From the IMG/VR virus record IMGVR_UViG_3300048050_000048, positions 1 through 22,044 of that record: DNA of 22,044 nt; one strand, given 5' to 3'. The notes beneath the pieces were generated by a model. It searched no databases, had not been told where the DNA came from, and saw only the letters and a list, made by a program, of their open reading frames with translations. Below are positions 20,158 through 22,044 of this stretch, in pieces (the stretch's first letter is position 1; each line of letters begins with the position of its first letter). This DNA is from a virus. Made by a program: the position numbers and the translations under genes.

Positions 20158-21351
20158 TTACTTGATGGTTAGGCCGACGATGGGCTGTGTGGTTCCAGCG
20201 GTGACCGTACCGGCGTTGGTGACGACGCCGCCAACGCGAGCGAAGGCGACGAAGCCGGTACGGTTGATTTCGATCCAGCGATCAGCGCTCTTTTTGAGCA
20301 TGATGCCGGGAAGCACTTCGCGGAAGGTGTAGCCCTCAGCGAAGTTGCCGAACTGGATGGCCACATTGCCGGTGACGACGCCGGGCTGGTAGGGGTTGAG
20401 TTTGACCGGATACCCGAAGATGGTTCCGGCGAAGCCAGAGATGCCGCCGTCGTTGAACGGCAGGAAGATGGGGCGACCGTTGGCATCGAGAATGTTGAGG
20501 ATGTTGTTGGCCAAGGTCGTGTTGGACATGAGGAAGGCCGAGCCGATGGAGTACGCGGGATCGAGGGCAGCAAGCAAGCCGGTGAGATCGGCATACTTGA
20601 CGGTGGAAGCCGTACTGCCGATAATGCCGGTGAAGGCCGTATTGAGGGCCGCGACGTTGCTGCCATTGCCAGCGGTAATCCAATTGGACACCGTACGCAG
20701 ATAGCGGCTATTGATGGCCTTCTCGACAAAGCCAACGAGATCGAACTCCACGTCCTGAAGCAACGAGTTATCGAGCAGGATGGGATTGGAGCGAATGTCA
20801 TCCACTTGGCAGGTGACGCCGCCAGCGGAGGGATCGGTGTTGGTGATAGGGGCGGAGTTGAGGACAAATCCATGGCCCAGATCGTTGAGCAGCGGAGCCT
20901 TGACCGCCTCGCCGGTGGAGGTGCGGAACTTGTGGACAAGGTCATAGACCGAGCCCGCATCCTTGAGCGCGATCTTGGGGTCGGTGACGCCCACGGGGAT
21001 CATGACGCCGCCGTCGATGGCCACGGTGAGATCGCGGCGCTCGAATTGCTCACCATGCAAAAAGCTGCGCAGTGCAATGCCGGTGGCTGAACGGCGCTCG
21101 GCAATGGAGCGGGTTTCGGTGCTGGCGTCGGCAGCCGGAGCACCACGCGGAATGCGACCAGAGCTGCGCTGCTCGGCATCGTGGGCTTCGAGCTGTTCCA
21201 TGCGCTGGGCATCGGCCTGGAGGATGTTGGCGTCGGCCAGCATCTTGTCAACGGCGGTACGCTGCTCCGCCGTCACGTCCGCGCCGCTCATAATGGCGTG
21301 CGCATCAGAAAGAAGCTTGCTGCGCTTTTCGCGCAGTTCTTGGAGGGTCAT
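20158..21351 (-). CDS. HK97-family major capsid protein
   Basis: The protein is 397 aa with AAAGGAA 7 nt before ATG. Residues 1-105 form a coiled-coil delta (scaffold) domain with repeated heptads (LQELREKRSKLLSDAHAIMSG, then AEQRTAVDKMLADANILQ), likely removed by the prohead protease. The HK97 fold follows, with SVYDLVHKFRTSTGEAVKAPLLN, then NSLLQDVEFDLVGFVEKAI and GIMLKKSADRWIEINRTGFVAFARVGG, which match the N-arm, E-loop/spine and A/P-domain patterns. The capsid crosslinking Lys/Asn pair of HK97 itself cannot be assigned by eye. The gene is preceded by a 337-bp non-coding gap with strong secondary structure. Confidence 0.93.
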   Translation of the reverse strand: MTLQELREKRSKLLSDAHAIMSGADVTAEQRTAVDKMLADANILQADAQRMEQLEAHDAEQRSSGRIPRGAPAADASTETRSIAERRSATGIALRSFLHGEQFERRDLTVAIDGGVMIPVGVTDPKIALKDAGSVYDLVHKFRTSTGEAVKAPLLNDLGHGFVLNSAPITNTDPSAGGVTCQVDDIRSNPILLDNSLLQDVEFDLVGFVEKAINSRYLRTVSNWITAGNGSNVAALNTAFTGIIGSTASTVKYADLTGLLAALDPAYSIGSAFLMSNTTLANNILNILDANGRPIFLPFNDGGISGFAGTIFGYPVKLNPYQPGVVTGNVAIQFGNFAEGYTFREVLPGIMLKKSADRWIEINRTGFVAFARVGGVVTNAGTVTAGTTQPIVGLTIK

Positions 21352-21494
21352 GGTGTTTCCTTTCGTTTTTTGTGCGATGGGTGCGAGACAGCGGCATCGA
21401 CGGGATGTGCTTCAGCGCGGCAAGGCAGACGGTTGCGATTGAACGCAGCCAACAAGTGGCGCTTCCGGCTTGCGTGAAATATTTTTGTGAATTG

Positions 21495-21570
21495 TGCCCA
21501 GGCGAGAGCGCAGGGGGCAGACCCTGCACTGTGTGGTTTTGAGAGTCAACCTGCTAACTCTCGCCGGGCA
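21495..21570 (-). ncRNA. Candidate structured RNA element, 76 nt, three-way-junction fold
   Basis: TGCCC-A-GGCGAGAG (21495-21508) pairs with CTCTCGCC-GGGCA (21558-21570): 13 bp with one bulged base. Inside are GCAGGG/CCCTGC (21510-21515 with 21522-21527) and GGTT/AACC (21535-21538 with 21548-21551); an alternative GAGAGT/ACTCTC hairpin (21541-21546 with 21557-21562) competes. Strand is given as the direction of phage transcription; the fold is possible on both. It may be a leader or attenuator for capsid expression, a processing site or a packaging-related DNA structure. Confidence 0.4.
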
Positions 21571-21628
21571 TTGCGCGGGCAGGATTTGATACCTGCTCTA
21601 ACCAGCTACTGACCACGCCGCCGCGCAA
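21571..21628 (-). ncRNA. tRNA-like fold lacking an anticodon arm (candidate tRNA remnant)
   Basis: On the minus strand an 8-bp acceptor-like stem (TTGCGCGG with CCGCGCAA; 21628-21621 with 21578-21571) is joined without a gap to a T-arm-like hairpin GCAGG-TATCAAAT-CCTGC (21596-21579), close to the tRNA T-loop TTCAAAT with one extra base. The 24 nt between contain TAGCTGGTTAGAGC-like text reminiscent of a D-arm. There is no anticodon arm and no CCA. It abuts the neighbouring fold exactly at 21570/21571. Not called as a functional tRNA. Confidence 0.4.
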
Positions 21629-21688
21629 ACTTGAATTTGAGAAAAAGAACCGGGCTGCCTATCACTTGGCACACCCGGCGGAAGAAAA

Positions 21689-22044
21689 TTAGTCCGACAC
21701 TGCGAATGCGGTGCGGATGGCCATACGCCGGTTGGCGTCGGAATTGCGGAGCGACCGCTCGGCTGCGCAGTTGGGATCATTGCAGTCATCGTCTGAGCAA
21801 AGGTCACAAGCCCCGGCGATGCACTGGTCACAATCACACTCGCATCCGTTGCCGTTGGCGTCACGTTTCTCTGGACGATGCGCGGCGGCAGTTGCCTCAA
21901 GCCGGGTGCGCAGTTCCACAGGGCAACTGGAGGGCAGCGTGCGCGCCTCAGAGTTGGAAGCCAGATAGGCCGGGTAGGTGACGGGCGACACGTCGAAGAG
22001 CTGGTCAAACTCAAGGATGCGGCGCGTTACAGAGCCGTCTGGGT
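21689..22044 (-). CDS. HK97-type prohead protease, C-terminal part, with Cys-rich tail
   Basis: The frame is open to the window edge, so only the last 117 residues are present; a GTG at 21991 is internal, not a start. RRILEFDQLFDVSPVTYPAY is the conserved final segment of HK97 gp4-like (U35) prohead proteases, which cleave the capsid delta domain and themselves during maturation. The protein then carries a long unusual tail: an acidic stretch with eight cysteines in about 28 residues (CECDCDQC, ACDLC, DDCNDPNC), followed by ERSLRNSDANRRMAIRTAF. Gene order, directly upstream of the capsid gene, supports the call. The catalytic Ser/His part lies outside the window. Confidence 0.85.
   Translation of the reverse strand, partial: PDGSVTRRILEFDQLFDVSPVTYPAYLASNSEARTLPSSCPVELRTRLEATAAAHRPEKRDANGNGCECDCDQCIAGACDLCSDDDCNDPNCAAERSLRNSDANRRMAIRTAFAVSD

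Follow-up and report, generated by a model that had tools for sequence, protein, structure and literature searches.

Few products of a tailed phage are in greater demand than its capsid protein. Structured 5′ leaders are known for phage capsid and coat genes, as represented by the T7 gene 10 leader and the MS2 coat operator, and the put RNAs of HK022 are two-domain cis-acting RNAs located near the start of an operon. RNA-level setting of capsid amount in HK97-type phages is, to our knowledge, little described. Here, we analysed an IMG/VR virus record over its full 22,044 bases (the window) and propose, with a probability of about 0.85 based on comparison of related sequences, that a two-part element preceding its capsid gene (element C) is an undescribed cis-acting leader of the capsid mRNA.

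The window is an Acidobacteriota prophage, with a host trmD gene at its left end (nearest relative in Acidobacteriaceae, 80% identity) followed by an integrase and a block of tail and head genes on the minus strand. The capsid gene and the gene in the prohead-protease position, both on this strand, are separated by 337 nt (21352-21688; Table 1), and all RNA readings of the gap were made on the minus (mRNA) strand. The protease-position fragment has no Pfam match; its C-terminal Cys/Asp-rich tail (CECDCDQC..CDLCSDDDC) is common to many relatives. A scan of the gap for sigma-70 promoters found none, and the hairpin directly after the upstream stop codon falls short of the pattern of the terminator scan. 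In the related loci L033 and L036, clear hairpins of terminator type, with U runs, occupy the same position as that of the window, upstream of element C, suggesting a separate 5′ end for the capsid transcript. In L008, L009 and L011, a small additional ORF (MDLKTALLILIGLVRKL...) lies between element C and the upstream gene, and the gap thus seems to be an insertion place for extra pieces. Covariance searches, suggested as a check by the first-pass annotation of this DNA, returned no Rfam 15 match (4227 models) to positions 21000-22044 at E values up to 10; at gathering score, the window and ten related loci (11 sources) likewise gave no match.

Table 1 Features in and around the gap between the protease-position and capsid genes of the window
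Feature	Coordinates	Strand	Basis and details
Major capsid gene, HK97 fold family	20158..21351	-	PF05065, E 1.7e-24
Shine-Dalgarno AAAGGA, in A-rich unpaired stretch	21358..21363	-	Sequence; A-rich spacer likewise in relatives
Element C, whole putative two-part leader	21383-21473	-	21 nt beyond the first flagged folds, toward the capsid gene
Element C domain 2, hairpin	21383..21418	-	P5, GA-UC pairs, bulged G, P4; comparative pairing
Element C domain 1, three-way junction	21420..21473	-	P1 (GCAAG.CGGA), P2 (GCCA CUUGU UGGC), P3 (UGCG UUCAAU CGCA, T-loop-like)
Element B, long imperfect hairpin	21495..21570	-	GGCGAGAG/CUCUCGCC and GCAGG/CCUGC, strongly conserved loop CUCAAAACCACACAG; z -4.32
Element A, degenerate initiator tRNA(fMet)	21571..21628	-	Acceptor UGCGCGG/CCGCGCA, 7/7 pairs; D-stem broken; anticodon arm lost; T-arm at 21579-21596 with intact 5/5 stem and one extra loop base (8-base T-loop)
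Terminator-like hairpin and U-rich run, directly after upstream stop	21639..21678	-	Fold -19.9 kcal/mol; equivalent in relative L001 -17.2
Gene in prohead-protease position, 3′ end	21689..22042	-	117 aa within the window, truncated by its edge; assigned by position and Cys-rich tail common to relatives

Element C was first seen when the sequence upstream of the capsid gene was read in 16 related loci. These share the block GGCTGCnTTCAATnGC followed by GnGAAGC and CTGTCC directly before the capsid start; elements A and B, by contrast, are not kept. Nineteen distinct phages carry element C ahead of their capsid gene. Compensatory changes were found in 28 of its 33 pairs, with 91-96% of alignment cells paired compared to 26-54% when the partners were slid. 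In domain 1, compared across 18 phages, double changes affect 17 of 20 pairs (91.5% paired, 36-46% slid), and in domain 2 they affect 11 of 13 (96% paired, 26-54% slid). The alignments behind these counts, of 18 and 15 rows, were arranged manually and contain N placeholders, which bias pair counts toward the structure, and kinship among the sequences inflates shuffle tests. A MAFFT alignment of domain 1 from five sequences, made without placeholders and free of this bias, had 96.7% of cells paired as opposed to 32-44% when slid, and RNAalifold, run independently, returned the same three-way junction for this domain. Held-out matches, which guard against placeholder bias, were also obtained: a model trained on five leaders found matches before the capsid genes of untrained relatives, with scores ranging from E 7e-9 for L052 to weak ones for the most divergent, and missed L027, while a model of 18 leaders recovered L213, fetched afterwards and held out, at E 8e-14 and 76 nt before the capsid start. 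The compensatory changes that the first-pass annotation proposed to look for in the gap of related phages are thus found in element C, outside the two folds it had flagged, which most relatives lack.

Few unpaired bases of element C are conserved, namely a G in the loop of P2, the UUCRAU loop of P3 and the bulged G in domain 2. Across 18 phages, 63-113 nt separate the core of the element from the ATG, and in the window the element ends ~31 nt ahead of the capsid start codon, followed by the open A-rich ribosome-binding stretch. Folded alone, the window sequence gives no signal (z +0.7), so a reader of this single sequence would miss the element. In L004, only parts of it are recognisable by eye.

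As a conserved non-coding stretch, element C could in principle be a DNA signal, for example for packaging or replication. We consider this hardly credible given the paired changes, the fixed place before the capsid start and the excess of G-U pairs over A-C mismatches on the capsid-sense strand (30 to 11 and 11 to 2), the last of which points to that strand as the RNA strand. By analogy with HK022 put, the element might also be an antitermination or promoter-proximal RNA acting on RNA polymerase for late read-through of the capsid operon; it is compact and two-domain, would lie near the transcript start, and is preceded by a terminator-like hairpin in the window and in L001, the closest relative. 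However, each record has a single copy, located before the capsid gene and nowhere else, and a search of the related records with an early model (R1) gave no convincing second one, which makes a put-like role quite unlikely. A cis-acting mRNA leader is favoured by this exclusive place before the capsid gene together with the A-rich ribosome-binding stretch that follows, the terminator-like hairpin upstream and the G-U excess.

The distribution of element C is limited to part of the related capsids. In a sister capsid clade (~51% identical; L015, L219 and L221-L223) element C is absent and other hairpins are present, so the element is not essential to such capsids. Three of these loci (L221, L222 and L223) have two hairpins of their own (CCGGA..TCCGG and TCCGATTAGTCGGA) as a leader directly ahead of the capsid start. 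Element C was not found with distant prophage capsids (~30% identical) in bacterial genomes. Upstream of a distant capsid in an Acidobacteriota genome (L180), a leader starting TTTCACGCA seems to form two simple hairpins and is perhaps a reduced form of the element. Matches of a later model (R2) in three acidobacterial genomes were weak (up to 32 bits), had no related capsid nearby and were judged to be chance, as was a pattern match in L037 that falls within an ORF. An origin of element C from a tRNA has no sequence support (25 to 480 of 500 shuffles as good). Pairing of its conserved CUGUCC tail with the Shine-Dalgarno sequence was likewise rejected, since own pairs were no better than swapped ones (p 0.43, in a test weakened by the script taking an earlier CTG in several sequences); the tail is explained instead by pairing within domain 2.

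From its position, we infer that element C influences capsid output. The few conserved unpaired bases give little hint of a ligand, and would fit an RNA that binds protein or makes tertiary contacts better than a ribozyme or a ligand riboswitch. Most likely, element C would act as a protein-binding or 5′-stabilising leader that sets capsid synthesis apart from that of the upstream gene, because a terminator-like hairpin stands between the two in the window and in L001. Among the ways in which it might do so, we rate autogenous translational control, rather than RNA processing or stabilisation, at somewhat less than even odds.

The leader idea had initially been attached to other parts of the gap. 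The first-pass annotation described a 76-nt and a 58-nt fold with no base between them, the latter made of an acceptor-like stem and, stacked on it, a GCAGG/CCTGC arm (loop UAUCAAAU) but no anticodon arm, and offered a decayed tRNA or a structured leader controlling capsid output as possible readings. Both folds are present as described (elements B and A, respectively), and the tRNA reading is supported for the shorter one. A capsid leader at these folds is not supported, since most relatives lack their stems, an outcome the annotation itself had named as speaking against its proposal, and among 17 related records only L001 has element B and merely the outer stem of element A. What stands of the idea is the strongly covarying element C, 21 nt further on.

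Element B is a lineage-specific hairpin. None of 200 shuffles was as stable as its fold in the window, and its counterpart in L001 is also folded (z -3.4), although the comparison comprises these two sequences only. In the same pair, element B is 84% identical compared to 73% for the capsid DNA, and its loop CTCAAAACCACACAG is unchanged. A DNA search found the element absent from the other 16 related records, a pattern built on the loop matched no other viral contig, and searches of phage records for elements A and B found none. The folding and the higher conservation relative to the capsid DNA would be expected if elements A and B formed a functional capsid leader; the 16 other related records, however, have the capsid gene, most of them with element C, and do without both, and we regard such a leader as very unlikely.

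Element A combines a 7-pair acceptor and a 5-pair T-arm with the absence of an anticodon arm and of an intact D-stem. Its fold stability is unremarkable (z -1.80, 11 of 200 shuffles as stable), ARAGORN called no tRNA in the region, and the tRNA covariance model (RF00005) found nothing in the whole record. When elements A and B were searched against 297 Acidobacteriota genomes, 11 matches were obtained at E up to 0.01, seven of which cover the same ~26 bases (query 45-70); all four of these seven that were fetched are tRNA-Met(cat) genes, of initiator type by sequence. End-to-end alignment of element A with an acidobacterial tRNA-fMet, allowing free deletion of tRNA parts, scored 27, compared to 22 for the best of 1000 dinucleotide shuffles, and in a second run 0 of 500 shuffles reached 27. 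The alignment spans nearly all of the element, including the 5′ part, GGTAGCTCGTTGG against AGTAGCTGGTTAG, the T-arm and the 3′ acceptor. Element A is thus supported as a degenerate copy of a bacterial initiator tRNA(fMet), a relic or a remodelled fragment seen in one genome.

Element A resembles the initiator tRNA(fMet) of Acidobacteriota in parts of the 5′ half and, over 24 bases that differ by one substitution and one inserted base, in the T-arm and 3′ acceptor. The 24-mer GCAGGTTCAAATCCTGCCCCCGCA, one substitution away from element A when the inserted loop base is ignored, occurs in 33 of the 297 genomes, whereas the CCGCGCA acceptor is found in none of these 33. Relative to tRNA-fMet, the acceptor of element A has a double change at 5-68 (G-C to C-G) that keeps pairing, and a U1-A72 pair where initiator tRNAs have a C-A mismatch. 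Unlike tRNA(fMet), the element has no anticodon arm, a broken D-stem, an 8-base T-loop and no CCA, and cannot work as a tRNA because the anticodon arm is lost. It is complete only in the window and in none of the 17 related records searched. In L001, the outer stem (UUUGCGC/GCGCAAA) is kept around a plain hairpin with no T-arm, and this counterpart has no tRNA likeness (211 of 1000 shuffles as good). In L014, the 134 nt between the upstream stop and element C form a long branched fold closed by UUACGCGGC/GCCGCGUAA. This closing stem is similar to that on the outside of element A and carries one compensatory change. The fold was rejected as a homologue, as the z-score is not exceptional (-1.2) and tRNA likeness is absent (88 of 300 shuffles as good).

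The intact acceptor and T-stem of element A, with other parts lost, raise the question of whether it is kept as a processing signal. RNase P cuts hairpins consisting of an acceptor stem, T-stem and T-loop (PMC11143913), so processing of element A is possible. The two stacked stems (7 and 5 pairs) resemble a minimal RNase P substrate, and a cut before 21627 would leave the capsid mRNA with a separate 5′ end and elements A, B and C downstream of it. The pairing-preserving change at 5-68 and the replacement of the C-A mismatch are in line with this scenario. However, unlike minimal substrates, element A has a 24-base bulge between the acceptor 5′ strand and the T-arm, no CCA and no conservation, the T-arm being absent from its nearest relative and the entire element from the others, and the T-loop has an extra base. 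On balance, retention for RNase P processing appears doubtful.

Taken together, we consider it probable that the gap contains three modules: the remains of a captured initiator tRNA(fMet) (element A), a lineage-specific hairpin (element B) and a conserved 5′ leader of the capsid mRNA (element C), in which a junction with a T-loop-like arm is followed by a bulged-G hairpin and an open ribosome-binding site. A more far-reaching possibility is that element C represents a new class of RNA leader with a tRNA-elbow-like core (P1, the conserved-G loop of P2 and the UUCRAU T-loop of P3) that binds the capsid or another protein for autogenous control, the initiator-tRNA fragment having been added upstream in the window lineage as a processing or capping module; we judge this unlikely. 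The tRNA remnant is an example of a phage picking up and remodelling a host tRNA inside a late operon, and the predicted role of element C, strongly covarying and tied to one gene, is directly testable with simple reporters.

No description of element C was found in the open-access literature, a search that did not extend to a 2017 survey of 224 candidate RNAs. Like the HK022 put RNAs, it is a two-domain RNA that would act in cis near the start of an operon, but it differs from them in being present as a single copy and before the capsid gene only. It shares with the T7 gene 10 leader and the MS2 coat operator a structured region just before a capsid or coat gene, in element C followed by the open A-rich ribosome-binding site, whereas its fold differs from both and matches no Rfam family. 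As far as Rfam 15 and the open literature show, element C is therefore new as a family and belongs to a kind already known, the structured leader of a phage structural gene.
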